From Bryobacterales bacterium (GTDB taxonomy: Bacteria; Acidobacteriota; Terriglobia; Bryobacterales; Bryobacteraceae): 64,000 bases of DNA. Positions 6,474-63,051 of the stretch are shown here, piece by piece. The first letter of the stretch is position 1; every line of letters begins with the position of its first letter. The stretch is from the NCBI GenBank assembly GCA_025463005.1, contig JAOAPR010000027.1, positions 62,001 through 126,000 of the forward strand. Reading direction: 5' to 3'. The position numbers and the translations under genes are program-made. Under the pieces are notes generated by a model. The model was given only the letters and a program-made list of their open reading frames with translations. It was not told where the DNA came from and searched no databases.

Positions 6474-7433
6474 TTAGTGGAATTTCGCCAGATCCATCCC
6501 GGTGTAAAGACTGGCTACCTGGTCGCCATAACCGTTGAATTTCACGGTCGGAATTTCCGTGCCCTGTCCAAGAAAACCGCCCCCGAGCCGCCGTTCGACC
6601 TTCTGGCTCCAGCGCGGGTGATCGACTTCCGGATTCACGTTCGAGTAGAAGCCATACTCGTGCGAGGAATAGATTCCCCAGTCGGTAGGCGGCTCTTTCT
6701 CGACGAAGCGGATTCGTGTGATCGATTTGATGCTCTTGTAGCCGTATTTCCACGGGATCACAAGCCGTACGGGGGCGCCGTTCTGGTTCGGCATGGTCTC
6801 TCCGTACATCCCGAATGAGAGCATCGTGAGAGGATGCATGGCCTCGTCGAGGCGCAATCCTTCGACATACGGGAAGGGAATACCCGCTTCCCGCGGCGAT
6901 AGCATCGACTTCGGATCGAAGTACGTCTCGAACGCCACGTACTTGGCTTTTCCGGTGGGCTGCACCTGCTTGAGCAGCGTGCTCAGCGAAAATCCGATCC
7001 ACGGCACCACGATCGACCAGCGCTCCACGCAACGGTGCCGATAGATGCGTTCCTCGGGCGGGGCCAGCTTCATTACCTGATCCAGGCTGAGCGTCTTCGG
7101 CTGCATGACCTCGCCTTCGATTCGGATGCTCCAAGGATCCGGAACCTTCCATTTCGGCGCGTTCTGGGAAGGATCTTCCTTTTGCGTGCCAAATTCGTAG
7201 AAGTTGTTGTAACTTGTGACGACCATCTTGGGCGACGGCTTTTCATTCCCCTGGTTGTGAAGGGGACCGGTCTGGACCAGGCCATTGATCTTGGCAGTAG
7301 CCAGCGACACGGACGGCAGTGCCAGGGTTCCCAGCGTCGCAGCGCCCGCGCCCAGAAACCGGCGCCGGTTCAGATACACTTCCTTAGGCGTGACATCGGA
7401 ATAGCGGAGGTCGGCAGGTTTTCGGATCAGCAT
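6474..7433 (-). CDS. msrP: MsrP, periplasmic molybdopterin methionine sulfoxide reductase (copy proximal to msrQ)
   Basis: A 319-residue sulfite-oxidase-fold protein. The Tat signal NRRRFLGAGAATLGTLALP (22-40) implies export of the folded, Mo-cofactor-loaded enzyme. Cys135 in RHRCVERWS matches the molybdenum ligand of YedY/MsrP, and the surrounding PEERIYRHRC and VVPWIGF stretches are family hallmarks. It reduces both R and S methionine sulfoxide in periplasmic proteins, with electrons from MsrQ. GGGAG lies 8 bases ahead of the ATG. A second, full-length msrP lies 33 bases upstream in the same direction. The two proteins align end to end with many identities but diverge in the signal region and C terminus, so this is an old duplication. 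Confidence 0.95.
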   Translation of the reverse strand: MLIRKPADLRYSDVTPKEVYLNRRRFLGAGAATLGTLALPSVSLATAKINGLVQTGPLHNQGNEKPSPKMVVTSYNNFYEFGTQKEDPSQNAPKWKVPDPWSIRIEGEVMQPKTLSLDQVMKLAPPEERIYRHRCVERWSIVVPWIGFSLSTLLKQVQPTGKAKYVAFETYFDPKSMLSPREAGIPFPYVEGLRLDEAMHPLTMLSFGMYGETMPNQNGAPVRLVIPWKYGYKSIKSITRIRFVEKEPPTDWGIYSSHEYGFYSNVNPEVDHPRWSQKVERRLGGGFLGQGTEIPTVKFNGYGDQVASLYTGMDLAKFH

Positions 7434-10252: not shown

Positions 10253-10262
10253 AATCGCGCGG

Positions 10263-11375
10263 CTATTGATGCAGTTCCGTGCTGTCCAGCAACTCGCCGT
10301 TGGGCTTTCTTGCCTCGACGCGCGCTGTCTTGCCATCCACATTTACAACCACGAAATTCTCAGTGCTGACGACCTTCACCGTAATACCTTCGGGAGGCGT
10401 GTCGACATCGTAAAGAGGCGCTCCACCGCCCCCGGTAGTGAAGTAATGGATGCCGTTCTTCAGGTAGTGCTGATAGTTGTGGTCGTGGCCAAAGAAGCCG
10501 GCCGAAACCCGGTACTTCTCGAACATCGGCTCCAGTTCCGTCATCTGCTTGTTCTCGCCCTGGCGACGCCTCACCGCAGTTTCCGGAGGATGATGTGCGA
10601 ACACAAATCGGAAGTCGGCGCTCTGAGCATCGCGCAGGTCCGCCGCCAGCCACTGCGCCTGCTCCTTCCAAAAGGAATCTTTCTCCGTGTCGGTGGCACC
10701 GACATTCTCAATGTCGCTGTTGATCACGGTGAAATGCGAGCTGCCCCAGTTGAACGAGTAGTATGGCCGGGCATCCATGTAATCGAAATAGTTCTTCGCG
10801 TTCCGCTCATGATTGCCCAGGGCCGGGAAAAATGCGGTTTTGCGCAACAGCTCGCGTTCGGCGTCGAAAAAGATTGGCCACTGCGATGTATCGCCGCCAT
10901 CCGCCACCAAATCCCCGGTGTGCATCACGAAATCCGGGTTGGCATTTTTCAGAATGCCCTCGACCACCGTTCGATGCACGTCATGCCTGGTTCGCGTGTC
11001 ACCGTAAACCACAAATTGAAATCGCGCCGCACCGGCCGGGGGCGTCTTGAACGAACCCTTTCCGGCTTCGCCCGGGAACGATTGGTAGTAGTAAGTTAAG
11101 CCCGGCCTTAGGGCCGTCAGGGTGATGCTTTCAGCGCGCAGGATCGGTGCGGTTCTTTCCATCTTGCCGGGCTCAGTGCCTACCGCTGCTTCGCCTTTCT
11201 GGATGACCCAGACCACGGTAGCCGAGCGGGGTCCCACGTTAACAGCGTAAGGACCGCCGACGATCTTTTCGCCATTCGCTTGCGCGGCGGCGGGCCGTGC
11301 TCCCCACAAAAGCGCGCCCAGGGTCAGCACGAACAACGATGTCGTCAGCGCGCACAATCGCACAGTTCTTCTCAT
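10263..11375 (-). CDS. Secreted purple-acid-phosphatase-like metallophosphoesterase
   Basis: A 370-residue exported protein with a signal peptide (LCALTTSLFVLTLGALLWGA, cleaved near ARPAAAQA). A fibronectin-like N-terminal domain (GGPYAVNVGPRSATVVWVIQ to GLTYYYQSFPGE) is followed by a calcineurin-like metal centre: VVYGDTRTRHDVH, HTGDLVADGGD, ALGNHERN, FAHHPPE and FFGHDHNYQHY supply the Asp, Asn and His ligands for two metals. These enzymes cleave phosphomonoesters or nucleotides outside the cytoplasm. The ATG at 11375 is preceded by GGAG at 8 bases; the frame runs much further upstream without a stop, but that extension is antisense to the TonB receptor gene and is not believed. It is divergent from the TonB receptor. 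Confidence 0.93.
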   Translation of the reverse strand: MRRTVRLCALTTSLFVLTLGALLWGARPAAAQANGEKIVGGPYAVNVGPRSATVVWVIQKGEAAVGTEPGKMERTAPILRAESITLTALRPGLTYYYQSFPGEAGKGSFKTPPAGAARFQFVVYGDTRTRHDVHRTVVEGILKNANPDFVMHTGDLVADGGDTSQWPIFFDAERELLRKTAFFPALGNHERNAKNYFDYMDARPYYSFNWGSSHFTVINSDIENVGATDTEKDSFWKEQAQWLAADLRDAQSADFRFVFAHHPPETAVRRRQGENKQMTELEPMFEKYRVSAGFFGHDHNYQHYLKNGIHYFTTGGGGAPLYDVDTPPEGITVKVVSTENFVVVNVDGKTARVEARKPNGELLDSTELHQ

Positions 11376-47865: not shown

Positions 47866-48399
47866 ATGGTGGCAAACATCTTGCTAAAAATCTGTTCTGG
47901 GATTTCGGTCTGCTTTATCCTGGCGGGCTGCGGCAGCGGCGGATTCGACCCCAACGGCGGGCTGGAATCGCGCCCCCTCCGCCTGGACGGAGAACAGGTG
48001 ATGCTGGAACCCGGACAACTGGAGTGTGGCGCCCGCGAGGACCTGTGGATTGTCGGCCCTGTAAGCGACGGGAGGGCGGTGGCGCGGCTGACGCAGAAGG
48101 GCCGCGACCTGCAGTTTAACGACGACGTGCAGATTGGCGAGCCAGGGATTATCGTTCCCTACGTCCAGGTCCGGGGCTCCTTTTCGCTCAAGGTGTTGCA
48201 AATGGGGTCCATTCGCGATGAGGACGCCTTTACCAAGTTGGCCGACGCCAAAGTGGGCGTGAAGATCGACCACAGTTGCTTTCAGAATAACCTGCCGGTC
48301 CTGATGGGGATCCGGCATGGGCATTTCGACCAGTCCACGAATCCCGTCTTTCGATTCAAACTGGACGGCGAGTGGCTGATGGATCAAGTCATTCACTAG
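47866..48399 (+). CDS. Putative lipoprotein, unknown function
   Basis: A 177-residue protein with a lipoprotein signal (MVANILLKICSGISVCFILA then GC; acylated Cys22) followed by a Gly/Ser linker and a beta-rich domain (PLRLDGEQVMLEPGQLECGA, DLWIVGPVSDGRAVARLTQK, QVRGSFSLKVLQMGS). No family is recognised. The N-terminal Gly residues at +2 and +4 do not suggest inner-membrane retention, so an outer-membrane anchor is likely. It is divergent from the cold-shock gene. Confidence 0.7.
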   Translation: MVANILLKICSGISVCFILAGCGSGGFDPNGGLESRPLRLDGEQVMLEPGQLECGAREDLWIVGPVSDGRAVARLTQKGRDLQFNDDVQIGEPGIIVPYVQVRGSFSLKVLQMGSIRDEDAFTKLADAKVGVKIDHSCFQNNLPVLMGIRHGHFDQSTNPVFRFKLDGEWLMDQVIH

Positions 48400-48432
48400 C
48401 AGTCATCACTGCCTGCAAGTCGACTCGATGCG

Positions 48433-48462
48433 TTGACTTGGGTCAAAGACTGTGGGTAGTAT
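48433..48462 (+). promoter_or_regulatory. Candidate promoter of the LSGxW genes with overlapping palindrome
   Basis: TTGACT (48433-48438), 18 bases, then TAGTAT (48457-48462). The -35 box is part of the inverted repeat TTGAC-TTGG-GTCAA (48433-48446), a possible regulator site. The gene start is about 110 bases further on, so the leader would be long. Confidence 0.5.
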
Positions 48463-48578
48463 GGTTCTCACCGAAGGCCTTGCCAGGGGTAACTTCTACG
48501 GTGTCAAAAGCGCCCCAATATGTTGTGTTTGAGCACTCGGTCCGTGCATTCCGAAAGGAACACCTGGAGGATTTTAAC

Positions 48579-49625
48579 TTGAGAAGACGTATCTGTTCGA
48601 TCCTGTCCGCAGCGGGGATGCTTGTCGGCCTTTCTCTGCTGTCTGTGCCTGCTTCCGCCCAGCGCGGCGGTGGTGCGCCCCAGCCCGAGGGTTGCCCTGG
48701 TCCACCCCAGTGGCAGTTGGATCGCCAAGCAGCTCAGGCTGCTGCGCGCGGCGGTGCCGCCACCCAGGCTCAAGGAGCAGGACGAGGAGCACCGGCTGCG
48801 GCAACGGAAGGCGCGGTGGCCGCTCCGGCAGCAGGTCGTGGCGGACGAGGCGGTGGACGAGGTGGAAATCAGCCCGCTGCGGCTCTCCCGCCGGTGCCAC
48901 GATTCCCGAACGAACCCGCTTACGGCGTGCAGGCCGGTAAACCTGATTTCGGTGGATTGGACAAGGGCGTGTGGAACGTTCCCTACATCGTTAATCTGCA
49001 GGTCAATGCTCACGACGAAAAGGGCTGCCAGTTCATCTACCCACCGTTTAAGCCCGCTGCCAAAGCGATTTGGGAAGAACGGTTCCTCAAGAATGATATG
49101 AAGGACGATCCGGAGGGCTTCTGCCTGCCTCCCGGCGTTCCGCGCATGCTGTACACGCCATATCCCACGCAGATCTACCAGATGCCGGATCGCATCGTAT
49201 TCGTGTATGAGGGAGGTGCGCACGTTTGGCGCCTGGTCTGGATGGATGGGCGGAAACTGCCCAACCCTGACGATGTAAATCCCACCTACCTGGGTTATTC
49301 GGTAGGCCACTGGGAGGGCGATACGCTCGTTATCGAATCGCTTGGCTTTAATGACCGGACTTGGCTGGATGCTTCCGGCCATCCTCACGGCGAAAAGCTG
49401 AGGGTCACCGAGAAGCTTACGCGTACCGACTTCAACAACATCAAAGTTGAAGCTACGTTCGACGACCCCGACTACTACACCAAGCCGTGGGTGGCGGTTA
49501 CCGGAATCACGTGGGCGCCTAACCGGACTGGCCCGTTCACGATGCGCGGCGGAGAGATCCTGGAGTACATCTGCCAGGAAAACAATCGCGACCTGATCCA
49601 CCTGAACGCGCAGCCCGGAAAATAG
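48579..49625 (+). CDS. Secreted LSGxW-family protein (member 2)
   Basis: A 348-residue exported protein. The start is TTG 48579, 8 bases after GGAGG, and gives the signal peptide RRRICSILSAAGMLVGLSLL ending PASAQ; ATG-led readings upstream lack support. Residues 35-115 are low-complexity Gly/Ala/Gln/Arg (repeated GRGG). The folded part has CLPPGVPRMLYTPYPTQIYQ, VWRLVWMDGRKLP, PTYLGYSVGHWEGDTLVIES, FNDRTWLDASGHPHGEKLRV and ILEYICQENNRDL. The same blocks occur in the gene that follows 8 bases downstream. The function is unknown. The conserved Asp, His, Trp and Glu residues would suit a binding or hydrolytic pocket. Confidence 0.82.
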   Translation: MRRRICSILSAAGMLVGLSLLSVPASAQRGGGAPQPEGCPGPPQWQLDRQAAQAAARGGAATQAQGAGRGAPAAATEGAVAAPAAGRGGRGGGRGGNQPAAALPPVPRFPNEPAYGVQAGKPDFGGLDKGVWNVPYIVNLQVNAHDEKGCQFIYPPFKPAAKAIWEERFLKNDMKDDPEGFCLPPGVPRMLYTPYPTQIYQMPDRIVFVYEGGAHVWRLVWMDGRKLPNPDDVNPTYLGYSVGHWEGDTLVIESLGFNDRTWLDASGHPHGEKLRVTEKLTRTDFNNIKVEATFDDPDYYTKPWVAVTGITWAPNRTGPFTMRGGEILEYICQENNRDLIHLNAQPGK

Positions 49626-49633
49626 CGGACGCT

Positions 49634-50344
49634 TTGGCACGGAAACGGCGGGTCTTGAATTGGCTGATCCCCGCCGTTTTTTTGCCGGTATTCGGACAGG
49701 CTCCCGTTAGCCGGCTCCCCGATGGACACGTGGATCTGGGCGGTCCCGGGGTGTGGAAACTTCCGGACATTGCCGACGCAACGCCCCGTATCGTCGATCC
49801 GAAATCGGGCGGCGCGCCGTTCAACTCCAAGGGCAAGCAGGTTTGGGACGAGCGGCGGCGGACACAGTCGGCGGCTGATCCCGTAAGGTCCTGCCTGCCG
49901 CCGGGCGTGCCGCGCATCATGTACACGCCGTACTCGATGGAGTTTCTGCAGCTCCCCAACCGTGTGGTGATGATCTTTGAGGGCGGCACACATATTTTCC
50001 GCTCGATTCCGATCGGCCCGAAAACAGGGCTGAAGCATCCGCCGGATCCCAATCCGACCTATCTGGGCGATTCCTACGGCTGGTGGGAGGGCGATTCGCT
50101 GATAGTGGATGTGGTCGGTTTCAATGACCGGAGCTGGCTGGATTCTTTCGGTCACCCGCACGGCGAGAAGCTGCACGTGATCGAAAAGTACAGGCGGCGG
50201 GACTCGTTGAACCTGGAATACACAGCGACCATCGAAGATCCCGAATACTACACCAGGCCGTGGACGGTGAAGACGGCGGCGATGTATCGGCCCAACGACC
50301 GTCTTCAGGAATACATTTGTCAGGAGGGCCCACCGGCCAGGTAG
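49634..50344 (+). CDS. Secreted LSGxW-family protein (member 3)
   Basis: A 236-residue exported protein. The assigned start is TTG 49634, 8 bases after the previous stop; an alternative TTG at 49655 gives MNWLIPAVFLPVFGQ, also a good signal peptide. The family blocks are RLPDGHVDLGGPGVWKLPD, CLPPGVPRIMYTPYSMEFLQ, PTYLGDSYGWWEGDSLIVDV, FNDRSWLDSFGHPHGEKLHV and LQEYICQE. It lacks the low-complexity region of its neighbour. An intrinsic terminator overlaps the first codons (see terminator entry), so its expression probably depends on translation across this junction. Confidence 0.8.
   Translation: MARKRRVLNWLIPAVFLPVFGQAPVSRLPDGHVDLGGPGVWKLPDIADATPRIVDPKSGGAPFNSKGKQVWDERRRTQSAADPVRSCLPPGVPRIMYTPYSMEFLQLPNRVVMIFEGGTHIFRSIPIGPKTGLKHPPDPNPTYLGDSYGWWEGDSLIVDVVGFNDRSWLDSFGHPHGEKLHVIEKYRRRDSLNLEYTATIEDPEYYTRPWTVKTAAMYRPNDRLQEYICQEGPPAR
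49643..49683 (+). terminator. Intrinsic terminator overlapping the start of LSGxW member 3
   Basis: AAACGGCGGG (49643-49652) pairs perfectly with 49670-49679 across a 17-base loop, and T residues run through 49683. It lies 17 bases after the stop of the preceding gene and within the signal-peptide codons of the next, so it can act as terminator or attenuator between the two paralogues. Confidence 0.8.
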
Positions 50345-51204: not shown

Positions 51205-51261
51205 GCCCCAATCATATCGCCAAATGCGATCATCTGCTAGGATGCGAGTTTGGGAGGAGTC

Positions 51262-52563
51262 ATGCACAAATTGAGTTGGATGAGCGCTGCTGCGGTGCTG
51301 GCAGCCGCGGGCTGGATGGTGATCCAGGCTGCCGAAAAAGTCGATGCTAAAAGCCTGCGGACCGGGCAGGCGGCCTTCGCCGACGCAAAATCATTGACGC
51401 CCGGCACATTCCACAAGATCACTCCGGCCGATCTGCCCAAGCCCTTCGCGACGAAGTCCGCCACGAATTTTCCGAAAGTAGTTCCGCGGCCGGAAAAAGC
51501 CTGGCCTCAGGCCCCGGCAGGATTCAAGGTCGAGCTGTATGCGACCAATCTTGGGATAGCTCGCCAGATCCGGACCGCGCCCAACGGCGATGCGTTCATG
51601 GCTGACCAGAACGGCCAGATCGTGATCTTCCGGGGCGTTACCAAGGACGGAAAGGCAGAGCAAACGTCGGTTTTTGCCACCGGGCTGGAGCGGATTTTCG
51701 GTGTCAATTTTTATCCCAACGGAGCCAATCCGCAATGGGTGTATGTCAGCAATGAGAAGTCCGTGATGCGGTTCCCGTACAAGAATGGCGATCTGAAAGC
51801 CAGCGGGGCGGCGCAGACACTGGTCAGCGACCTCCCGAGCGGCGGGTATCACTTCACCCGCGACGTAGTTTTCTCAAAAGACGGGCGGAGCATGTACGTC
51901 GCCGTGGGCTCGGGCTCGAACATCGACGATCCGGATACGCATCCGACGGAGACCCATCGCGCCGACATTCTGGAGTACACGCCCGACGGAAAATTCGTGA
52001 AGGTGTATGCGTCGGGGATTCGGAATCCAGTGGGGCTGGCGGTGAATCCGGACACAGGCGAAGTGTGGTGCTCGGTGAACGAGCGGGATGAACTGGGCGA
52101 CAATCTGGTGCCGGATTATGTTTCGTCGGTGAAAGAGGGCGGCTTCTACGGCTGGCCCTTTTACTATATGGGCGGGAACCCCGATCCACGCCTGAATGGC
52201 GCGCATCCGGAGATGAAGAGCAAGGTGATCGTGCCAGACGTACTGATCCAGCCGCATAGCGCCTCGCTCGGCATCACGTTCTATACGGGCCCGCAGTTCC
52301 CGGCCGAATATCGCGGCGATCTGTTCGCGGCCGAGCACGGATCGTGGAACCGGTCGACATCGTCGGGGGGCGAGGTGATTCGCGTTCCGCTCGACAAGGG
52401 TAAAGCCAGTGGCGTGTACGAGGACTTCCTCACGGGATTCGTAACGCCGGAGGGCCAGGTTTGGGGCCGGCCGGTAGGGGTCGCGGTGATTAAGGATGGA
52501 TCGCTGCTGGTGACCGACGAAGGATCGAAGTCGATCTGGCGCGTGAGCTACACAGGCAAGTAA
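51262..52563 (+). CDS. PQQ-dependent sugar dehydrogenase (sorbosone/GSDH family)
   Basis: A 433-residue exported beta-propeller enzyme with signal MHKLSWMSAAAVLAAAGWMV cleaved near IQAAE. Propeller motifs include GVNFYPNGANPQWVYVSNEK, YHFTRDVVFSKDGRSMYVAV, IRNPVGLAVNPDTGEVWCSV and the C-terminal AEHGSWNRSTSSGGEVIRV and GRPVGVAVIKDGSLLVTDEG, as in soluble glucose/sorbosone dehydrogenases. These oxidise aldoses or aldehydes in the periplasm with PQQ and pass electrons to a cytochrome. GGGAGGAG lies directly ahead of the ATG. A cytochrome c gene is convergent, 47 bases away, and is a candidate electron acceptor. Confidence 0.9.
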   Translation: MHKLSWMSAAAVLAAAGWMVIQAAEKVDAKSLRTGQAAFADAKSLTPGTFHKITPADLPKPFATKSATNFPKVVPRPEKAWPQAPAGFKVELYATNLGIARQIRTAPNGDAFMADQNGQIVIFRGVTKDGKAEQTSVFATGLERIFGVNFYPNGANPQWVYVSNEKSVMRFPYKNGDLKASGAAQTLVSDLPSGGYHFTRDVVFSKDGRSMYVAVGSGSNIDDPDTHPTETHRADILEYTPDGKFVKVYASGIRNPVGLAVNPDTGEVWCSVNERDELGDNLVPDYVSSVKEGGFYGWPFYYMGGNPDPRLNGAHPEMKSKVIVPDVLIQPHSASLGITFYTGPQFPAEYRGDLFAAEHGSWNRSTSSGGEVIRVPLDKGKASGVYEDFLTGFVTPEGQVWGRPVGVAVIKDGSLLVTDEGSKSIWRVSYTGK

Positions 52564-52568
52564 CACCA

Positions 52569-52613
52569 GTAGGGCCGGTCTCCAGGCCGGCCGCTACCCC
52601 AGACCGGCCTCTA
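52569..52613. repeat. REP-like palindrome downstream of the PQQ dehydrogenase
   Basis: GGCCGGTCT-CC-AGGCCGGCC (52573-52592) forms a hairpin, and a second, inverted copy of its left arm (AGACCGGCC at 52601-52609, flanked by CTAC) extends the palindrome. The first 24 bases match the element in trpF at 20 positions. It fills the gap between two convergent genes and could act as a bidirectional transcript end. Confidence 0.7.
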
Positions 52614-53270
52614 CTTGGCCGGCAAGAGGGCGATCTTCGCGCCGGGTGGGATGCCGCGGATCATAGTGCGCGCCGGAAGATTCAAGGGCGTCCGGTACAG
52701 GAACGGATGCCCGAACTGCATCTTGTAATCCTGCAGCCAGAGTAAGGGCTCGATGGTGCCATCCGGAAGCTGGGCGGTGATCTGGAACGAGCCTTTCTCG
52801 GGAACATTCTCCGGCCAAAGTCCGTCCAACACAAACGCGCGGCTCAGTGCAAAGTCGCCGCTTGCGCTCAGTTCGCCTTTGGAATGATGGAAAGTCTCGG
52901 GCTCGAGCGACTTGGGCGGCGGCGGCAGGTCTTTCGGTTCACCCTCGGGCACGCCTCCATCGCTCCAACTTACGATCCGCTCCATCTCTTCGGGCGTCAG
53001 CGCCTGATCGTTCCGGAATTCGCCGAATCCTTTGATCGCGCCCCAAGGGGGCATGCGGCGACGAAGAGTCTCTTCCTTGATCGCGACGGCCCAGGGACGG
53101 GCTTCGCCGTAGGTCATCAGCGAGAACGCGGCACCGCCCGGGTGATGGCAGGAGGCGCAGTGATTGTTCACGATGCGGGAGATGTCCCGGGTCCAGGTAA
53201 TCGAGGTGGTGATGATGTCGTGCCCTTGCCCCGCGACGCAAGCGGCGAGTAGAAGAAGGCAACGCTTCAT
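52611..53270 (-). CDS. Exported monohaem cytochrome c-like protein
   Basis: A 219-residue protein with signal MKRCLLLLAACVAGQG and one c-type haem motif, NNHCASCHHPGGAAF, so haem is attached in the periplasm. The distal ligand is probably the Met in LRRRMPPWGA. QALTPEEMERIVSWSDGGVP is typical of small cytochromes found with planctomycete/acidobacterial oxidoreductases. The second half (ETFHHSKGELSASGDF, LWLQDYKMQFGHPFLYRTPL, RGIPPGAKIALLPAK) is a beta domain of unknown role. GAGG precedes ATG 53270 by 6 bases. The start is only 24 bases from the divergent tannase-like gene. Confidence 0.85.
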   Translation of the reverse strand: MKRCLLLLAACVAGQGHDIITTSITWTRDISRIVNNHCASCHHPGGAAFSLMTYGEARPWAVAIKEETLRRRMPPWGAIKGFGEFRNDQALTPEEMERIVSWSDGGVPEGEPKDLPPPPKSLEPETFHHSKGELSASGDFALSRAFVLDGLWPENVPEKGSFQITAQLPDGTIEPLLWLQDYKMQFGHPFLYRTPLNLPARTMIRGIPPGAKIALLPAK

Positions 53271-53294
53271 AACCATCCTCATTATAGGGATACA

Positions 53295-54797
53295 ATGACT
53301 CTCGATATGCGCATTAATATAACGGTGATTTTGGTGGCTATTGCATTTCCCGCGGCGGCCGCGACCTGCGAGAGCATGGCGCAGCTCACCTTGCAGAACA
53401 CGACTGTGACGGCCGCGCAATCGATTGCGGCTGGGGCTTTTACTCAGGGGAAACAGAACAACGTCTTCCGCGAGCTGCCGGCGTTTTGCCGTGTAGCCGC
53501 GACCGTCCGGCCGGTGGCCGATTCCGAGATCAAGATCGAGGTCTGGATGCCGGCGTCAGGATGGAACGGGAAATTTCGTGGGACGGGGAACGGCGGCCTG
53601 GGCGGGTCGATGAACTTCAACGGGATCGCCGCGGCTATGCGTGGCGGATACGCAGTGGCGGGGAATAACACCGGCCACGACGGCGGCGCCAGCCTGATGA
53701 TGGGGCATCCCGAGAAAATCCGCGACTTCGGCGAACGCGCCGGGCATGAGATGACCGTCAAAGCCAAGGCGATCGTGGAAGCGTTTTACAGCGATCGTCC
53801 GCGGCACTCGTATATGGTCGAGTGCGGAGGCGGCAGCATGGCGGCGATGAAAGCGGCGCAGCGTTTTCCCACGGATTACGATGGTCTGGTGGCGGGCGGC
53901 CTGGCCACCTACCTGACGCATCACGTGTTCGGGCAGATCTGGATCTGGCAGGCGACTCACAAGGATGCGGCGAGCGAAATTCCGCCCGAGAAGTATCCGG
54001 CCATTCACAACGCGGTGCTGGCGGCGTGCGACCGTCTGGACGCCGTTCAGGACGGCGTTCTGGAGGACCCCACGCGCTGCAAGTTCGATCCCAAGGTTCT
54101 GCAGTGCAAGACAGGTGACGGTCCGGCGTGCCTGACTGCTGCGCAGGTGGAAGCCGCACGGAAACTGTACACTCCCGCGACGAATCCGAGGACGAAGAAA
54201 GAGATCTTCGGGCCGTTATTCCCGGGCAGCGAGTTGCTGTGGGCGCAGTCGGCAGGTCCTGCGCCGGTATCGATCTCGTCGGATTTCTTCAAGTACTTCG
54301 CGTTCAAGGATCCGACTTGGGACCCGGCGAAGCGGCCTGTGAACTTCGATAGTGATTTGGCACTGGCGGATACGCCGGAGAACACTGTGATCAACGCGAA
54401 CGATCCTGATATCCGCAAATACGCGGAGCGGGGCGGGAAGCTGATCATTTACGGAGGCTGGAGCGATGCAGGGATTCCGCCGCGGTTGGCGGTGGACTAC
54501 TACAAGAGCGTGGTTGACAAGCTGGGCGCTCGCGCAGTGAAGGATTCGCTGCGGCTGTTCATGGTGCCGGGCATGGGGCACTGCAATGGCGGTGACGGGA
54601 CGGATACCTTCGACATGCTTAGCGCGATCGAGCAGTGGGTGGAACAAGGGAAGGCTCCGGATCGGATCGAAGCCTCGCGGGTGCGGGATGGGAAGACCGA
54701 CCGCACTCGCCCGCTGTGCCCGTATCCCCAGGTCGCGACCTATAAAGGATCGGGGAGCACCGACGAGGCGGCGAATTTCACGTGTTCTGTGCGCTGA
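53295..54797 (+). CDS. Tannase/feruloyl-esterase family protein lacking the catalytic Ser (paralogue 1)
   Basis: A 500-residue exported protein of the tannase/feruloyl-esterase family, alpha/beta hydrolases that split galloyl or feruloyl esters. Signal MRINITVILVAIAFPAAAAT (from Met5) precedes CESMAQLTLQNTTVTAA. The scaffold is complete: NNTGHDGGASLMMGHPEKI, FPTDYDGLVAG, the C-rich loop KFDPKVLQCKTGDGPACLTA, the acid GWSDAGIPPRLAVDYYKSV and the His in VPGMGHCNGGDG. The nucleophile motif is changed: relatives read NGCSxGGRQ, this one VECGGGSMA, so Gly178 stands where Ser should be. It may be a binding pseudoenzyme. Start alternatives are 53295 and 53307. Two intact paralogues lie at 54844 and 61519. 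Confidence 0.88.
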   Translation: MTLDMRINITVILVAIAFPAAAATCESMAQLTLQNTTVTAAQSIAAGAFTQGKQNNVFRELPAFCRVAATVRPVADSEIKIEVWMPASGWNGKFRGTGNGGLGGSMNFNGIAAAMRGGYAVAGNNTGHDGGASLMMGHPEKIRDFGERAGHEMTVKAKAIVEAFYSDRPRHSYMVECGGGSMAAMKAAQRFPTDYDGLVAGGLATYLTHHVFGQIWIWQATHKDAASEIPPEKYPAIHNAVLAACDRLDAVQDGVLEDPTRCKFDPKVLQCKTGDGPACLTAAQVEAARKLYTPATNPRTKKEIFGPLFPGSELLWAQSAGPAPVSISSDFFKYFAFKDPTWDPAKRPVNFDSDLALADTPENTVINANDPDIRKYAERGGKLIIYGGWSDAGIPPRLAVDYYKSVVDKLGARAVKDSLRLFMVPGMGHCNGGDGTDTFDMLSAIEQWVEQGKAPDRIEASRVRDGKTDRTRPLCPYPQVATYKGSGSTDEAANFTCSVR

Positions 54798-54843
54798 GAA
54801 CAAATTGGATATGATCGATATCCAGGTAAGGGAGGCCGTGTCC

Positions 54844-56349
54844 ATGTTGAAACTGGCAGCGCTGCTATTCGTGGCTTCTTATGCGATGGGCGCCTCATGT
54901 GAGAGCCTGAGCTCGCTTTCTATTCCGCACACCACGATCGTCGCGGAGTCGGTGGCCGCCGGAGGGTTCGCGCCGGCCGCGCCCGCGGGTGGAAAAGGCA
55001 AAGCAAAGGGCGGCGGCGAGGCCTTCGGAGAATTGCCCGCGTTCTGCCGTGTCCAGGTTACGTCCAAGCCCTCGCCCGACTCCGATATCAAGATCGAATA
55101 CTGGCTTCCGGTGAACGGTTGGAACGGAAACTTCGAGGCCAACGGAAACGGCGGCTGGAGCGGATCGATCACGCCCAATACGTTGGCGACCGGAATGCGG
55201 CGCGGCTATGCAGCGGCGATGACCGACACCGGCCATGACGGCGGCAGCGCCAGTTTCGCCATGGGACATCCGGAAAAAGTAGTCGATTTTGGATACAGGG
55301 CGGTGCATGAGATGGCGACCACCGGCAAAGCGCTGATCAAGGCATTTTACGGACGCGACGCGCGACATTCTTATTGGAATGGCTGCTCGGCGGGCGGGCG
55401 GCAGGGATTGATGGCGGCACAGCGGTATCCGGAAGATTTCGACGCGATCGTGGCCGGGGCTCCCGCTATCAATTTCACGGGTCGGGCGACCCAGGCCGTG
55501 TGGATCGGTCAGGCCACGCATAAGGACGAATCGAGCGCGCTGCCGCAGTCCAAGTTCGCGGTGATTCATGCAGCGGTGCTGGAAGCCTGCGATGCGCACG
55601 ACGGCGTGAAGGACGGCGTGCTCGAAGATCCCACCAAGTGCAAATTCGATCCCAAGGCGCTCGAATGCAAGGGTGCGGATGAACCTACCTGTTTGACCTC
55701 CGCACAGGTGGAGACGGTTCGGAAGATTTATTCGGACGTGGTCAATCCCCGGACCAAGAGCGTGATCTTCCAGGGACACGAACCGGGAAGCGAAAACGGG
55801 TGGACCACCATGGCGGGCGCTAACGTGTTCACCATCGCGACGGATACGTTCAAATACGCAGTGTTCGAGGACAACAATTGGGACTACAAGACGCTAAACT
55901 TCGATAGCGACATCGCTAAGACGGATCAGAAAGCCGGCAAGGTCATTAATGCGCTCGATCCGAATCTGAAGCCGTTCCTCGCCCGGGGCGGGAAGATTAT
56001 CCAGTATCACGGCTGGGCGGATCCGCAAATTTCTCCGCGCAGCAGCGTCGAATACTACAAGAGCGTCGCGGCGGCAATGGGCGGGGTTAGTAAGATCAGC
56101 GACAACTACCGGTTATTCATGGTTCCGGGCATGGCACACTGCGGCGGCGGCGACGGCACGGCGAACTTTGACATGCTGGCGGCGCTAGAGCAGTGGGTGG
56201 AACAGGGGAAAGCCCCCGACCGTATCGAAGCGTCGCGCGCGCGGAATGGGCAGACTGACCGGACGCGTCCACTGTGCGCGTATCCGCAAGTGGCGAGCTA
56301 TAAGGGGTCGGGAAGCACGGACGACACCGCAAACTTCGTTTGCAAATAG
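54844..56349 (+). CDS. Tannase/feruloyl-esterase family hydrolase (paralogue 2)
   Basis: A 501-residue exported esterase. Signal MLKLAALLFVASYAMGA precedes SCESLSSLSIPHTTIVAESV and a Gly/Lys-rich insert (GGKGKAKGGG). The catalytic machinery is intact: Ser182 in WNGCSAGGRQGLMAAQRYPE, the acid in GWADPQISPRSSVEYYKSV and the His in VPGMAHCGGGDG; a Cys next to Ser normally bridges to the one beside His. The Ca-binding-like loop DGVKDGVLEDPTKCKFDP is present. AAGGGAGG lies 8 bases ahead of ATG 54844; the gene follows paralogue 1 by 46 bases and may be cotranscribed. The likely substrates are galloyl or hydroxycinnamoyl esters. Confidence 0.93.
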   Translation: MLKLAALLFVASYAMGASCESLSSLSIPHTTIVAESVAAGGFAPAAPAGGKGKAKGGGEAFGELPAFCRVQVTSKPSPDSDIKIEYWLPVNGWNGNFEANGNGGWSGSITPNTLATGMRRGYAAAMTDTGHDGGSASFAMGHPEKVVDFGYRAVHEMATTGKALIKAFYGRDARHSYWNGCSAGGRQGLMAAQRYPEDFDAIVAGAPAINFTGRATQAVWIGQATHKDESSALPQSKFAVIHAAVLEACDAHDGVKDGVLEDPTKCKFDPKALECKGADEPTCLTSAQVETVRKIYSDVVNPRTKSVIFQGHEPGSENGWTTMAGANVFTIATDTFKYAVFEDNNWDYKTLNFDSDIAKTDQKAGKVINALDPNLKPFLARGGKIIQYHGWADPQISPRSSVEYYKSVAAAMGGVSKISDNYRLFMVPGMAHCGGGDGTANFDMLAALEQWVEQGKAPDRIEASRARNGQTDRTRPLCAYPQVASYKGSGSTDDTANFVCK

Positions 56350-56405
56350 TCATCACGGAACATCGGGGACAGCCAGCCAATTCCGGCGAACTGCTTCGGA
56401 CCGGG

Positions 56406-57695
56406 TCAGCTGTTCGTAATTCGAAATTGGAGGCAGTCCCCGACTTCAGGGCCGAACACGCGGTTCCGAATCGGCCCCAAGCGGGCATCCGCGCGGAGCG
56501 GATCCATTCGCGGGTCGACATCAAGGACAAACAGCGCGGCTGAATTTTCGTTGGCCGCTCGCTCCAATTCCAGGAAGGCTTCGTCCTTGCGGCCCAGTGC
56601 GTGGAGAAGCAGGCTCTGGAAATAGGCGTCTACGTATTCGGTGTCGCGAAGCTCTTCTAATTGCTGGAGGATGGCCACAGCTTCCGCGCGCCGGCCGCTG
56701 TTCGCCAGGCAGATCGCTTCCAGCGCCCGCAGCCACGGGAGATCGGGACAGAGAACAGTAGCCATGCGGTATTGCTTGAGAGCTTCCTCGGTATCGCCGG
56801 AGTACTCCAAAGCTTGCGCGTAAAGCGCGCGTCCCAAAGGCAGGTAGGGGTGCAATTCCAGGGCGTCGCGGGCGGCAATCAGAGCTGCGTCCAGTTCTCC
56901 GCGGAAGAAGCGGACGAAAACCTCAGAAGTGGGAAGCGGCACGGCCAGCGGGTCGATCGCGCGAACCTCTTCCACCTGTTCGAGAGCCTCATCCAGGCGT
57001 CCGGTGGCGGCGTAGAGCATGCTGAGGCGTATGTGTACGGGCACCCACTTGGGCTTCTCCCGGAGTGCCTGCAAGAGATCTGCCTCGGCCTCCGCGATTT
57101 TGTGTTCAAAGACGTGCAAGCCCTGGGCGCGGTCGGCGCGCAGATCCGGAGTCAGGCCGCTTAAGGCAACGGCGCGGCGGTGGGCCTGGAGAAAACCCTG
57201 GTACATCTGGCGGGCCGGCCGCATACCGTAGGTGCCCATCATCAAGTAGCTCAGGGAGGCTCCCTCGAACGCCCGAGGATCGTTGCTTTCGCGCGCCGCG
57301 CGCTGGAAATAACACAGCGCTCTCTCAAACCCTTCCCGCGTGCAGCGATTCCAGCAATGCCAGCCCTGCCGGACCAGATCGTCGGCGTGGGGAGTTTCCA
57401 GGCAGTAGCCGAGTCGAGGACGGTAGCTGATCCAGGGACCGCATTCGCCCAGGACCTTCTTTACTTCGCCGACCGTGACCGCTACGGTGTGCTTGGAAAC
57501 CAGGGTGCCGCTCCAAGCCGCTTGAATCATCTGCTCGTAGTTCACGTGCCGGCCGCTGTTTTGAACCAAAACATGCAGCACGTGAAACGCTTGGGGCCGG
57601 ACATCGATCTCTACGCCGTCTCGCAGCAGCCGCGACCGCGCGGCATCCAGGCAGAAGGGGCCAAACGGTATGGGTTCGACGGGGATTCTAACCAT
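56406..57695 (-). CDS. Winged-helix DNA-binding protein with TPR domain (CadC/HilA-like)
   Basis: A 429-residue protein. Residues 1-100 are an OmpR/PhoB-type winged helix without receiver: FGPFCLDAARSRLLRDGVEI, RPQAFHVLHVLVQNSGRHVN, YEQMIQAAWSGTLVSKHTVA and ISYRPRLGYCLE. From about 130 to the end are TPR-like repeats (REGFERALCYFQRAARESND, RLDEALEQVEEVRAIDPLAV). Such regulators sense protein or ligand partners through the TPR part. No membrane helix is present. It is divergent from the large TonB receptor with about 150 bases between starts, so it is a good candidate regulator of that gene and perhaps of the tannase genes. Confidence 0.88.
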   Translation of the reverse strand: MVRIPVEPIPFGPFCLDAARSRLLRDGVEIDVRPQAFHVLHVLVQNSGRHVNYEQMIQAAWSGTLVSKHTVAVTVGEVKKVLGECGPWISYRPRLGYCLETPHADDLVRQGWHCWNRCTREGFERALCYFQRAARESNDPRAFEGASLSYLMMGTYGMRPARQMYQGFLQAHRRAVALSGLTPDLRADRAQGLHVFEHKIAEAEADLLQALREKPKWVPVHIRLSMLYAATGRLDEALEQVEEVRAIDPLAVPLPTSEVFVRFFRGELDAALIAARDALELHPYLPLGRALYAQALEYSGDTEEALKQYRMATVLCPDLPWLRALEAICLANSGRRAEAVAILQQLEELRDTEYVDAYFQSLLLHALGRKDEAFLELERAANENSAALFVLDVDPRMDPLRADARLGPIRNRVFGPEVGDCLQFRITNS

Positions 57696-57847
57696 AACGA
57701 GCCTTAGATTTGACGCTATTTTGATTAGCGCCGGAAGCAGTCTAGCATACAATCGCGTCAGAGGCTAGCTGTGGGCATGCTCGGTCGCTCCGTACTCCGC
57801 TCCTGCTGTGCCCTTTCCGCCCACTACTCAAAAACGAAAGGGGATCT

Positions 57848-60800
57848 ATGAGATTCAGGAACTTGCTGCGTTCCTTGCTACCGATTGCGTTGGCGCTGAT
57901 TGTCGGAATCCCTTCCTTGCTGGCCCAATCGGCAGGGACAGGGGCGTTGACAGGGACCCTGACGGATCCTTCCGGCGGCACCATCCCGAACGCCACGGTT
58001 ACGTTGACCAACACCCAAACAAATCAGGTTCGTACTGCGACCACTGGACCGGACGGGAGTTACCGGTTCACCCTGATACCGCCTGGGATATATCGCGTTC
58101 GTTTTGCGGCGCCGGGTTTTAAAACCTCGGAAGTCTCCACGTTCAATGTGAACGTGACGGAGACACCGGTGCTGGACCGCACCATGGAAGTCGGCGCGCA
58201 AAGCGAGCAGGTGACCGTAGAAGCGGTCGTGGAAACCCTGCAGACCGCGACTTCCACGCTTGGTACGACGGTAGGGTCGCGGGTGGTCACCGCGCTGCCC
58301 TTGAGCAACCGCAACTACACGCAGATCATCGGCCTTTCGGCGGGTGTGAACGTGAGCGTGAACAACGCCACGGCATTCGGCAAGGCGACCCAGGATTTCA
58401 GCGTGAACGGCGGCGATCCCGGTCAGAACAATTATCAGATGGACGGAGTAGCCATCAACAATATCGCCAATAGTGGCAGCTCGAATGACTCGGGAATCTA
58501 CACCGGAATCGGCATTCCGAATCCGGATGCAATCCAGGAATTCAAGATTCAGACGTCAACGTACGATGCCAGCTATGGCCGCAATCCGGGCGCAAATGTG
58601 AACGTCGTCACCAAGTCCGGCACGAACCAGTTTCATGGTTCGCTCTTCGAGTTTTTCCGCAACGAAAAACTCAATGCGAATGACTTTTTCCAGAACCGCG
58701 ATGGCGGAGGGACGCGGCAGATCTTCAAACAGAATCAGTTCGGCGGAACTATAGGGGGTCCGATCAAGAAGGACAAGCTGTTCTTCTTCGGCAGCTACCA
58801 GGGAACCCGGCAACTGAACGGAGTAGCGACGCAAGGCTCAAACACGTCATTTCTCTATCCGCTCCCGCTAGGCGATCGCAGCGCCCCCGGATATCAGGCG
58901 GCTCTGGGCGCCGCCATGTGTCCGGCGAATCATCCGGGCGCGTCGGCCGCTCCCTATAACACCTTCTTGACAGGGATCGTTCCAGGCATCCAAGTCGCGT
59001 GTGACGGGTCCAATATCAACCCTGTGGCGCTGAAGGTGTTGCAGCTCAAGAACGCGGACGGCAGCTATTACATTCCCAGTTCACCGACTGGTGTATACGG
59101 ACCCCGCCGCTTCAGCATCCCCGCAAAATATTCGGAAGACCAGGCGCTGATCAATGCCGACTACGCGATCACCAGCAAACATACACTTCAAACGCGCTAC
59201 TTCTACACCAATAATCCCCAGACGCTGAATCTCTCGGGCGGCCTGCCGGGCACGCCGGCGAACCTCCAGTATTCGAATACCTATGCAGTCCTGAAGCTCA
59301 CCAGCGTGCTCAGCCCCACGTTCGTGAACGAAGCGCACGCATCGTTCCAGCGCAACTACCAACTGGGGCAAGATACGACACCCGGGTCACCGCAGCAGAT
59401 TGGACAGACGCCCATCATTCCTCAGATCACCGAGCTGCCTGTGACGGTGATATTTGGAGGACCCAGCCACGGCGGGTCGCTCTATCCATCCTACAGTCCC
59501 ACTAACCAGATCCAGCTCGGGGACCAGTTTGCATGGTCCGCGGGAAAGCACAATTTCCGAGCCGGCTTCGAATGGGAGCATACGCATTGGCCCATCGTAT
59601 TCCAAGGACTCGAGCGCGGATTTCTGTTCTTTGGGTCGTTCGCCGACTGGCTCATCGGCCGCGCTGGGTGCACCGATCCAAGCTGCAGCCCCGCAAATCC
59701 AGGGAACACGAACGGGGGCTTCGGCAACATCCTGCAGTGCCTGTTCTGCGTGCGCAGCGGCCCGGACGGCATCATTCACGGCTATCTGCTCTCGAACACG
59801 AACGCATTTTTCCAGGACGACTGGAAGGTGAACTCCAAATTGACCCTGAACCTGGGCGTCCGCTGGGAATACGATGGCACCTTCAGCGATAAGTATGGAA
59901 ACCTGACGAACTTCTGGGAAAGCCAGATCCGAACGGTGCCGATCCCGCCGACGGGTCCAACAACTTCCGGGCCCGGCCTGGTTGGATACGTGGTGCCGAA
60001 CAACTATCTGGACCACTATCCGCAGCCGCCGGCTGGTGTCCTGGTCTCGGACCGCAGGCTCCCGGTTAAGAGCGGGCCGCCGCTCACGAACTTCGGGCCA
60101 CGGATCGGATTCGCATATCAGATCACGAACAGGTTCGTCATGCGCGGAGGCGCGGGCATTTTCTACGATCGCGTAGCGGGTGACAGGTTCGTGCATGGAC
60201 TTGAACAAGGCTACCCCTACGCTGTAACGCTCGACTACGCGGGGCCTGGTCCGGCAACGGTTCCTTTCAGCCTGCAGAATCCCTACCCTTCGACTCCGGT
60301 AGGAACCTTCGCGTCCCGATGGGCGAACTTCCAGACGGGCACCACTTCCAATCTGAATACGCCTGCCATCACCGAAAATCTTCACACGCCCTTAATCCGG
60401 CAGTACAACCTGACATTCCAGTATGAGTTCGCACCCCGCTGGGTGGTGGAAATGGGCTACGTGGGATCGAGCGGAATCAATCTGGTCGACACGTACCACA
60501 CGATTAATACCCCAAGCCTGGCGAGTCCAAGTAATCCGGTCAATGGAATCACTGTTAATACAACCGGGAATGCGGCGCTTCGGGCGCCGATTCTGGGCTA
60601 TCAGCCTGCTGGATTCCAGGTGACGGCGTTCGATGGCATTTCCAACTTCAACAGCCTTCAAGTTACCGTCCGCAAGCAATTCTCCCGGGGATTCAGCATG
60701 CAGGCGGCCTACACCTGGAGCAAAGCTCTGAATAATTTGTCGGCCAACGCTGTAAACGCCACCGGCGCGAACAGCAACAACCCCTCTGATCTGGCTCAGC

Positions 60801-61435
60801 AGTACGGACCCGCCGGGTTCAGTCGGCCACATCGTTTCATTGTGAACTACAGCTACGAGCTTCCCTTCGGCAACTCCACTGGGGCGCTCGAAAAAGTTGT
60901 CAGAGGCTGGGCCGTTTCGGGCGTGACCACGGTCCAGACAGGCACTCCGCTGACGATCACCGATTCTAGCGGTGGGACCGTTTACGGTTTGGGCAATTTC
61001 GGTATCGCTCGCGCTCAGATGTGTCCCGGATCCACCTACGGGGACATTGCTACTTCCGGAGGCATCGAATCGCGGCTGGGTGGACCCAGTGGCGGATCCG
61101 GCTATCTCAATAGAAGCGCGCTCTGCGCGCCGCCGGCTGCGCCAAGCTCGGCGCCGGCTTTCCCGGGCGGTGCGCTTCCTACGCTGTTCGGCAATTCAGG
61201 CGTTGGGATCATTGGTGGTCCTGGCCAGTTCAACTGGGATATCACGCTCAGCAAAGACACGCGGATTGGAGAACGACAAGCCGTGCAGTTCCGGGCGGAG
61301 TTCTTCAATGCTCTGAATCATCCGCAGTTCGCGAATCCGGCACTGGCAGTTTCGACGCCCGCGACGTTCGGCCAGATCACCACCACTACGGTGAACCCGC
61401 GCATTATCCAGTTTGCGCTGAAGTACGTGTTCTGA
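57848..61435 (+). CDS. TonB-dependent receptor, large Oar-like type
   Basis: A 1195-residue outer-membrane receptor. The signal peptide (SLLPIALALIVGIPSLLAQS) is followed by a carboxypeptidase-regulatory-like domain (GALTGTLTDPSGGTIPNATV to VGAQSEQVTVEA, about 35-120), a plug (RVVTALPLSNRNYTQIIGLS, INNIANSGS, NVVTKSGTNQFHGSLFEFFR) and a long barrel ending RIIQFALKYVF. It is likely to import a plant-derived oligomer, judging by the esterase genes on both sides; the ligand itself is not evident. AAAGGGGAT precedes the ATG. A strong terminator follows, which separates it from the next esterase gene. Confidence 0.94.
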   Translation: MRFRNLLRSLLPIALALIVGIPSLLAQSAGTGALTGTLTDPSGGTIPNATVTLTNTQTNQVRTATTGPDGSYRFTLIPPGIYRVRFAAPGFKTSEVSTFNVNVTETPVLDRTMEVGAQSEQVTVEAVVETLQTATSTLGTTVGSRVVTALPLSNRNYTQIIGLSAGVNVSVNNATAFGKATQDFSVNGGDPGQNNYQMDGVAINNIANSGSSNDSGIYTGIGIPNPDAIQEFKIQTSTYDASYGRNPGANVNVVTKSGTNQFHGSLFEFFRNEKLNANDFFQNRDGGGTRQIFKQNQFGGTIGGPIKKDKLFFFGSYQGTRQLNGVATQGSNTSFLYPLPLGDRSAPGYQAALGAAMCPANHPGASAAPYNTFLTGIVPGIQVACDGSNINPVALKVLQLKNADGSYYIPSSPTGVYGPRRFSIPAKYSEDQALINADYAITSKHTLQTRYFYTNNPQTLNLSGGLPGTPANLQYSNTYAVLKLTSVLSPTFVNEAHASFQRNYQLGQDTTPGSPQQIGQTPIIPQITELPVTVIFGGPSHGGSLYPSYSPTNQIQLGDQFAWSAGKHNFRAGFEWEHTHWPIVFQGLERGFLFFGSFADWLIGRAGCTDPSCSPANPGNTNGGFGNILQCLFCVRSGPDGIIHGYLLSNTNAFFQDDWKVNSKLTLNLGVRWEYDGTFSDKYGNLTNFWESQIRTVPIPPTGPTTSGPGLVGYVVPNNYLDHYPQPPAGVLVSDRRLPVKSGPPLTNFGPRIGFAYQITNRFVMRGGAGIFYDRVAGDRFVHGLEQGYPYAVTLDYAGPGPATVPFSLQNPYPSTPVGTFASRWANFQTGTTSNLNTPAITENLHTPLIRQYNLTFQYEFAPRWVVEMGYVGSSGINLVDTYHTINTPSLASPSNPVNGITVNTTGNAALRAPILGYQPAGFQVTAFDGISNFNSLQVTVRKQFSRGFSMQAAYTWSKALNNLSANAVNATGANSNNPSDLAQQYGPAGFSRPHRFIVNYSYELPFGNSTGALEKVVRGWAVSGVTTVQTGTPLTITDSSGGTVYGLGNFGIARAQMCPGSTYGDIATSGGIESRLGGPSGGSGYLNRSALCAPPAAPSSAPAFPGGALPTLFGNSGVGIIGGPGQFNWDITLSKDTRIGERQAVQFRAEFFNALNHPQFANPALAVSTPATFGQITTTTVNPRIIQFALKYVF

Positions 61436-61518: not shown

Positions 61519-63051
61519 ATGGTGCCGCTTGCCATGACCCGACCAACCACCATTCTGGTGACGATCACTGCCTTCGGTATCGCACCCATTTTCGGCGCTT
61601 CCACGTGCGAAAACTTGACAGCGCTGAAGCTCAAGAACACGAGCATCACGATGGCGGAATCGGTCGCGGCGGGAGCTTTTACTTCGCCCTTGCCCGGCCC
61701 ACAAGGGAAGCAGCCGCAATCATTCGCGAACCTGCCGGCGTTCTGCCGGGTAGCGGCTACGCTCACGCCTTCCAGCGATTCCGAAATCAAGATTGAGGTC
61801 TGGCTGCCCGCAACCGGATGGAACGGGAACCTGCAATCGGTGGGCAACGGGGCGTGGGCTGGGAGCATCAGCTATCCAGCCATGGCAACCGCCCTCGCAG
61901 CGGGATACGCCACCGCCAGTACTGACACGGGCCACAGCGGCGGCAATCCGGCGACATTCATCCCCGCACATCCGGAGAAAGTAATCGATTTCGAGTACCG
62001 TTCGGTGCATGAGATGACGGTCGCGGCCAAGGCGATCATCAACGCGCGCTACGGCAACGATCCGAAGTACTCCTATTGGAATGGATGTTCCACGGGCGGA
62101 CGTCAGGCGTTGGCGGAGGCGCAGCGCTATGCGGCGGATTACGACGGCATCATCGCCGGCGCGGCAGCGAACTACGTGACGCATCTGCAAGGCGCGCAGG
62201 TGTGGAGCGCGGCGGTGGTCCACAAGGACGAGGCGAGTTACATCCCGCCGGCCAAGTACGCGATTCTGCACGCGGCGGTGCTCGAGGCCTGCGACGCTCT
62301 GGATGGCGTGAAGGACGGGGTTCTCGAGAACCCTACCAAGTGCCGCTTTGATCCGGAAAAACTGTTGTGCAAGGATGCCGATGGTCCATCGTGCCTGACT
62401 GCGCCGCAGGTGCAAGCAGCGCGGCAACTCTACGCAGGGCCGGCAGACTCGCGCGGGAAATCGCTATTTCCGGGGCTTGAGCGCGGGAGCGAAACCGGCT
62501 GGGCGACGCTTTCCGGGACGCGGCCCATGGCGCTGGCGGATGAGACTTACAAATTCCTGGTGTTTCAGGACGCCAACTGGAACTATCTGACCTTCAATGC
62601 CGAGCGCGACATGGCGGTGGCCGACCAGAAGGTCGGTGCCACTGTGAACTCGATCGATCCCAACCTGAAGCCGCTGTTCGATCGGGGCGGGAAGCTGCTG
62701 ATGTATCACGGCTGGGCGGACCCCGGGATCCCGCCGCAGAACAGCGTCAGCTATTACAAGAGCGTGGTCGAGAAACTGGGCCCATCGGCAACCTCGAATT
62801 CCATGCGCCTGTTCATGGTCCCCGGCATGGGGCACTGCCAGGGCGGGGACGGCACCAGCACGTTCAGTATGATCAACGCGCTGAGTACGTGGGTGGAGCA
62901 GGGCAAGGCGCCCGATCGCATCGAAGCGTCGCGGGTGCGCAATGGGAAGACCGACCGCACTCGTCCGTTGTGTCCGTATCCGCAGGTGGCCGTGTACAAC
63001 GGGTCAGGCAGTACGGATGAGTCGGCGAATTTTTCCTGCAAGGTGCAATAA
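61519..63051 (+). CDS. Tannase/feruloyl-esterase family hydrolase (paralogue 3)
   Basis: A 510-residue exported esterase, closest in pattern to paralogue 1 at the C terminus but with an intact active site: Ser191 in WNGCSTGGRQALAEAQRYAA, the acid in GWADPGIPPQNSVSYYKSV, and the His in VPGMGHCQGGDG. It starts with signal TTILVTITAFGIAPIFGAST, then CENLTALKLKNTSITMAESV. The loop DGVKDGVLENPTKCRFDP and the ending RVRNGKTDRTRPLCPYPQVA with GSGSTDE are shared with both relatives. It is separated from the TonB gene by a terminator and is followed after 9 bases by an LSGxW/MBL gene, probably cotranscribed. Confidence 0.93.
   Translation: MVPLAMTRPTTILVTITAFGIAPIFGASTCENLTALKLKNTSITMAESVAAGAFTSPLPGPQGKQPQSFANLPAFCRVAATLTPSSDSEIKIEVWLPATGWNGNLQSVGNGAWAGSISYPAMATALAAGYATASTDTGHSGGNPATFIPAHPEKVIDFEYRSVHEMTVAAKAIINARYGNDPKYSYWNGCSTGGRQALAEAQRYAADYDGIIAGAAANYVTHLQGAQVWSAAVVHKDEASYIPPAKYAILHAAVLEACDALDGVKDGVLENPTKCRFDPEKLLCKDADGPSCLTAPQVQAARQLYAGPADSRGKSLFPGLERGSETGWATLSGTRPMALADETYKFLVFQDANWNYLTFNAERDMAVADQKVGATVNSIDPNLKPLFDRGGKLLMYHGWADPGIPPQNSVSYYKSVVEKLGPSATSNSMRLFMVPGMGHCQGGDGTSTFSMINALSTWVEQGKAPDRIEASRVRNGKTDRTRPLCPYPQVAVYNGSGSTDESANFSCKVQ

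Follow-up and report, generated by a model that had tools for sequence, protein, structure and literature searches.

The tannase family takes in MHETase and industrial tannases. Its fold is an alpha/beta-hydrolase core carrying a large feruloyl-esterase lid, and its CS-D-HC serine esterases are recognised by a serine nucleophile in the motif C-S-x-G-G, a catalytic aspartate and histidine, a pair of cysteines next to the serine and histidine, and activity on gallate, ferulate or MHET esters. The closest described systems include FaeB of Aspergillus oryzae (3WMT) and the MHETase of Ideonella sakaiensis (6QGA and others), in both of which the cysteine pair ties the serine and the histidine together, according to PMC6461665. 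The same paper describes His488 of MHETase as dispensable on the basis of the H488A variant, and lists FaeB Leu235 among the residues near the triad with a possible role in substrate positioning (Palm et al., PMC6461665). The S225A variant of MHETase is described as inactive in a further report (PMC7568301). Going by titles and the starts of abstracts, no serine-less clade of the tannase family was found described in open-licence PubMed Central papers among the matches listed.

In the window (the whole stretch of 64,000 nucleotides that was analysed), a gene of this family was identified in which the nucleophile position is occupied by Gly178 (Table 1). Its ORF contains no internal stop, may start at 53295 or 53307, and encodes a protein with a putative secretion signal extending to approximately residue 23, as judged by eye. 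The protein matches PF07519 (Tannase) with 329.6 bits against a cut-off of 29.8, over positions 1-489 of the 490 in the profile. The sequence-only reading had reported VECGGGSMA with Gly178 at the nucleophile site in an intact frame of 500 residues, and this proved exact to the residue, as did the motifs and numbering that it gave for the two paralogues nearby (NGCSAGGRQ with Ser182 in the gene starting at 54844 and NGCSTGGRQ with Ser191 in the gene starting at 61519). The acid, histidine and cysteines which it described as kept were likewise found, as Asp391, His429 and Cys177/Cys430. Its claim that all flanking family blocks are kept goes too far, with YHGWxD reading YGGWSD (His387 lost), the GGRQ behind the Ser position reading GSMA and AGAP reading GGLA. 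No frameshift had been seen, and a compensated frameshift around the motif was also rejected, as the alignment is free of gaps there and relatives using different codons have the same residues.

Table 1. Coordinates in the window of the Gly178 gene, its active-site and lid-helix codons, and the genes that follow it
Feature	Position	Strand	Remarks
Gly178-type tannase-family protein, 500 aa	53295..54797	+	PF07519 E 4.9e-98
Cys177 (TGC), first half of active-site disulfide	53823..53825	+	
Gly178 codon GGA at nucleophile position	53826..53828	+	Ser in 180/201 family proteins
His210, first turn of first lid helix (model)	53922..53924	+	19/21 Gly-clade proteins
Gln214, one turn on from His210, same helix	53934..53936	+	20/21 Gly-clade proteins
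Trp218	53946..53948	+	21/21 Gly-clade proteins; 4/180 Ser-type
Gly387, His in 167/180 Ser-type proteins	54453..54455	+	
Asp391, catalytic acid	54465..54467	+	21/21 in Gly clade
His429, catalytic histidine	54579..54581	+	21/21 in Gly clade
Cys430, second half of active-site disulfide	54582..54584	+	
Ser-type tannase-family protein (Ser182), 46 bp downstream of Gly178 gene	54844..56349	+	GGGAGG ribosome-binding-like site before ATG
Regulator with Trans_reg_C domain and TPR repeats	56406..57752	-	Gene at same place in two other species of genus
Large outer-membrane receptor-like protein (CarboxypepD_reg, OMP_b-brl_4)	57848..61435	+	Same place in two other species of genus
Second Ser-type tannase-family paralogue of cluster (Ser191)	61519..63051	+	

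The gene order of this cluster recurs on contigs L092 and L093, from two further species of the genus. Scans of 53000-56600 for promoters and terminators gave no signal exceeding that of shuffled sequence; no promoter-like site was found, and no terminator-like site lies between the Gly178 gene and the Ser-type gene that follows it. Directly upstream lies a gene of the glucose/sorbosone-dehydrogenase type (51250-52563), beside which a weak cytochrome-c-like gene is encoded on the reverse strand (52611-53420). Further upstream, two adjacent proteins (48372-50344) had no Pfam match at E 0.001, and comparable genes stand ahead of the cluster in L092 and L093. Across the source assembly, which is fragmented into 342 contigs, sixteen tannase-family matches were obtained. 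These correspond to twelve genes, one of which was hit as two separate pieces, plus three contig-end fragments.

An AlphaFold2 model of the Gly178 protein was obtained with a pLDDT of 95 and a pTM of 0.93 from 68 aligned proteins, only eight of which were of the Gly type, so this confidence may stem largely from the Ser family. In the model, the strand (171-177), the elbow and the helix (180-190) around Gly178 are intact, and residues 207-221 form the first lid helix. Comparison using VIA-align 2 returned 3WMT as the best match (Z 45.8, rmsd 2.0 A, 467 residues, 31% identity), followed by four further entries for fungal esterases of this family (Z 45.1-45.6), MHETase at up to 39.9, the tannase of Aspergillus niger at 33.6, and entries outside the family at no more than 18.3. 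The alpha/beta-hydrolase core and large feruloyl-esterase lid are thus present in the model and its 3WMT match. A Gly protein from contig L098 that has no cysteine pair was modelled with a pLDDT of 91.2 from 46 aligned proteins, with a loop of low confidence at 37-54. Neither modelled Gly protein looks like a decaying fold, though both models lean on aligned relatives.

FaeB and the window protein share this fold and lid, the Asp and His of the triad and the cysteine pair, but FaeB Ser203 is replaced by Gly178 and the histidine of the YHG motif by glycine, and His210, Gln214 and Trp218 on the first lid helix are new in the window protein. As these three lie four residues apart on a single predicted helix, they should face one side. 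MHETase also has the same fold (Z of approximately 39.9 over 468 residues) with a large lid, and what we take to be its calcium-site residues are apparently kept in the window protein, whereas its Ser225 is replaced by glycine and the equivalent of its His488 is lost. This equivalent is position 387, as judged by its spacing of four residues before the catalytic Asp. The Gly178 protein is therefore a member of the tannase family by sequence and fold that is without the defining catalytic serine of the family's esterases, and the most fitting label for it is that of a serine-less branch of PF07519.

To place the replacement within the family, 201 distinct proteins of at least 350 aa were assembled by searching at the level of genus, family, class and phylum and by scanning genome contigs, with stretches extracted from some of the genomes and with shorter fragments and duplicates left out. 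The nucleophile column contained Ser in 180 and Gly in 21, with no third residue; this ratio is not a frequency, as recruitment was based on similarity to the query or to profiles of the Gly clade. Only the best few candidates per genome were scored in the large searches (six in one, three in two others). The Gly proteins were found in twelve genomes of four coded families (f1, f4, f37 and f59) and on two contigs, L098 (Acidobacteria bacterium nzgw76) and L112, the latter from a bin labelled Gammaproteobacteria, where mis-binning or gene transfer could account for it. From their match to the named contigs L092, L093 and L094, we infer that the coded genomes belong to Acidobacteriota. Within the window's own family, a profile of six rows (A1) identified a Gly protein in 7 of 237 genomes at 762 bits or more, the next match having 706 and up to six candidates being scored in each genome, and the distribution there looks patchy. 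All 21 Gly proteins match PF07519 at E <= 0.001, and no NCBIfam family was found for the three that were scanned. A tblastn search of plasmids returned tannases in 161 records, all below 60% identity. The Gly gene in the Gammaproteobacteria-labelled bin (JOPF060; L112:7905-9497) adjoins a TauD dioxygenase gene.

Trees were built without the stretches around positions 178, 210, 391 and 429, so the motif was unable to group its own carriers. The 156 near-full-length Ser proteins were reduced to 99 representatives, of which 75 entered a 96-row tree; 31 of these were hand-picked for a 52-row tree, and a further set of 20 Ser proteins is in neither tree. In the 96-row tree, a single branch separated the Gly proteins from the Ser rows (SH-aLRT 78), and none of 500 label shuffles scored as low. 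The 52-row tree supported the all-Gly branch moderately (89/72), with a single change of state in 86% of 200 bootstrap trees and more than one in 14%. Most simply, the replacement of Ser by Gly would have happened once.

In the 52-row tree, the Gly proteins were found to group with one Ser-type protein (L098:7869-9593) with support of 100/99. This protein possesses Trp218 and Gln214 and has Ala at position 387, and its gene stands in tandem with a Gly gene (9703-11295). It looks like a survivor of the evolutionary intermediate state, and the likely order of events is that Trp218 and Gln214 were gained and His387 lost first, with the loss of Ser following. All four Ser rows with Trp218 lack His387, compared to 9 of the 176 others (p 1.7e-5, ignoring relatedness), and positions 218 and 387 therefore seem to be coupled.

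Orthologues of the Gly178 protein were identified in two other species (L017/L093 and L018/L092) with 91% identity and the same motif. A serine in such close relatives had been named as the result that would point to a recent loss, and both carry Gly; with the clade being deep as well, recent loss or error was rejected. Values of dN/dS for three orthologue pairs (Nei-Gojobori) were 0.064, 0.056 and 0.058, similar to the 0.055, 0.055 and 0.056 obtained for the Ser neighbour. TCN codes for Ser in 179 of the 180 Ser rows, with TCG used by the L098 intermediate, and GGN codes for Gly, so the change requires at least two substitutions. Codon usage at the position was GGC in nine, GGA in seven, GGT in three and GGG in two of the 21 Gly rows; with all four codons in use, the residue is fixed and the codon is drifting. 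That Gly is strictly kept, in place of Ala or Cys, suggests that space or backbone shape matters at position 178. A residue needed for catalysis in the family has been lost, and the gene is under purifying selection.

In the 52-row tree, 11.3 substitutions per site are spanned by the Gly clade. Its members have 49% median pairwise identity, and no more than 53 of the 467 positions are the same in all. Asp391 and His429 are both among them, present in 21 of 21. Residues that serve the serine were found to be relaxed. His387 occurs in none of the Gly proteins compared to 167 of the 180 Ser rows, and Cys177 and Cys430 are both kept in sixteen and both lost in the same five (p 4.9e-5, ignoring relatedness). 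The five genes without the pair (L028, L098, L112, L230 and L243) lie in two separate parts of the tree. The oxyanion residue Gly101 is V, L or F in six Gly proteins, which was given little weight because this position also varies in the Ser rows (A in 26 and V in 5 of 180). Residues gained in the clade are Trp218 (21/21), Gln214 (20/21, compared to 21 of the 180 Ser rows), Gly202 (20/21) and His210 (19/21), the last being Phe in two divergent members. By a hand count on the alignment, His209 aligns to FaeB Leu235. Asp246 and Asp249, which we take to be equivalents of MHETase calcium-site residues, are present in all 21 and Asp253 in 17.

On the best reading of these data, the Gly clade is probably an ancient and maintained serine-less branch of PF07519 that no longer acts as a serine esterase. 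Ser would have been replaced by Gly in an old secreted branch of tannases and feruloyl esterases, and the pocket above it rebuilt. The room vacated by the serine side chain, together with the His-Asp dyad and the stripe on the lid helix, would form a pocket for an aromatic ligand of phenolic or tannin-like nature, in which the dyad may act as a non-covalent general base or acid (as in an isomerase, a lyase or direct water activation) and no acyl-enzyme would form. We give a probability of roughly 0.45 to this repurposed pocket, in which the Asp391-His429 dyad would still be active in acid-base chemistry on a phenolic ligand. It is favoured over pure binding as the parts serving the serine are relaxed and the dyad is not, while the new residues on the lid helix are conserved. 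Against dyad chemistry, Asp and His might be conserved for structural reasons or to bind a ligand, and the changes at Gly101 make ester chemistry less likely but also count against a single reaction common to the clade. As a more tentative extension, the branch may constitute a serine-free enzyme class within the tannase/MHETase fold, secreted, ancient and spread over several Acidobacteriota lineages, which would use the dyad and the His/Gln/Trp stripe for a non-covalent reaction on plant phenolics or tannins and would have arisen through an intermediate like that on L098.

A branch that dropped its serine and has long kept its Asp and His offers a natural test of what the remaining active site is able to do. 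As the probable order of events is visible in a living relative, a switch of a hydrolase fold to a different chemistry, or to a binder, becomes directly testable. Moreover, all 21 Gly proteins are labelled 'Tannase and feruloyl esterase' by Pfam, and this label would overcount the ester-cutting capacity of soil Acidobacteriota.

The sequence-only reading had suggested a maintained pseudoenzyme. That the protein is maintained is supported by the Gly of its orthologues, the dN/dS of approximately 0.06 (a check which that reading had proposed) and the depth of the clade. The second half of the term is less secure, as a repurposed pocket fits Asp391 and His429 in 21 of 21 and the relaxation of the Ser-serving residues at least as well as pure binding does. 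A true pseudoenzyme, whose pocket would bind an aromatic ester or acid as a sensor, a buffer or a carrier to an outer-membrane receptor, with Asp391 and His429 holding the ligand, is only somewhat less likely. It would account for the loss of the nucleophile in all 21 proteins, of the oxyanion Gly in six and of the disulfide in five, and non-catalytic relatives in the alpha/beta-hydrolase group exist (Arb2 and DUF examples, PMC11878206). The strict dyad and the strictly invariant Gly, however, exceed what simple binding needs. Gene neighbourhoods were compared for 17 of the 21 Gly proteins and 87 of 160 Ser proteins, each with a total flank of 5 kb or more (the Gly proteins of L179, L181, L026 and L071 being dropped). 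A receptor-like gene was found within 5 kb in 6 of the 17 Gly loci, including both sides of the gene on L240, but this is not clearly above the 16 of 87 Ser loci (Fisher p 0.19), and three of the six represent one orthologous locus.

It is improbable that the Gly proteins hydrolyse the usual esters through another nucleophile, such as Ser181 in the next turn of the helix or water activated directly by His429. The dyad and lid are kept and the aspartates at 246, 249 and 253 are largely conserved, the calcium-site equivalence of which is our assumption, but position 181 is Ser or Thr in only ten of the 21 proteins (A 7, S 5, T 5, G 4). Ser181 was rejected as a nucleophile shifted across the clade, being Ala or Gly in eleven proteins and located, in the model, within the helix that follows the elbow, and Gly101 is changed in six. 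With the original nucleophile gone and this nearest serine so often absent, the serine acyl-enzyme route is closed.

A role as a non-catalytic companion of the esterase whose gene starts 46 bp downstream, assisting its folding, stability or tuning by analogy with SCPL5 and SCPL4 in tea, is about as improbable. In the tea system (PMC11886809), the triad-altered paralogue SCPL5 stands beside an active galloyl-ester enzyme, and a tandem with a Ser-type paralogue occurs in the window, in both close orthologues and on L098. SCPL5, however, is a serine carboxypeptidase-like protein of another family and kingdom, and such pairing is not conserved in the Gly clade. Of the 17 Gly loci, five have a second tannase gene no more than 5 kb away, compared to 25 of the 87 Ser loci (p 1.0). 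Three of those five are one orthologous locus, and no such gene was found in the other 12 Gly loci. Finally, recent decay, sequencing error or misassembly can be dismissed, for although loss of Ser is a known route of decay and the assembly is in 342 pieces, the same Gly is carried by orthologues in independent assemblies and by a deep clade, with at least two substitutions, a low dN/dS and an uninterrupted ORF.

Other neighbours were compared across the same 17 Gly and 87 Ser loci. No clear difference was obtained for PQQ dehydrogenases (p 0.16, uncorrected) or for proteins of the metallo-beta-lactamase fold (p 0.054, uncorrected), and genes of the sorbosone-dehydrogenase type were near 2 of 17 Gly and 5 of 87 Ser loci. 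A conserved partnership with any of these, with the receptor or with an active tannase neighbour was rejected, there being no clear difference between Gly and Ser loci. In one locus (L240:1475-10863), the Gly gene (5310-6830) is flanked by two large genes matching the receptor-like protein of the window. For each of the two most divergent Gly genes (L243:1252-4600 and L244:2951-4525), large metallo-beta-lactamase-fold proteins are encoded directly downstream in the same direction, and an operon is possible in both genomes.
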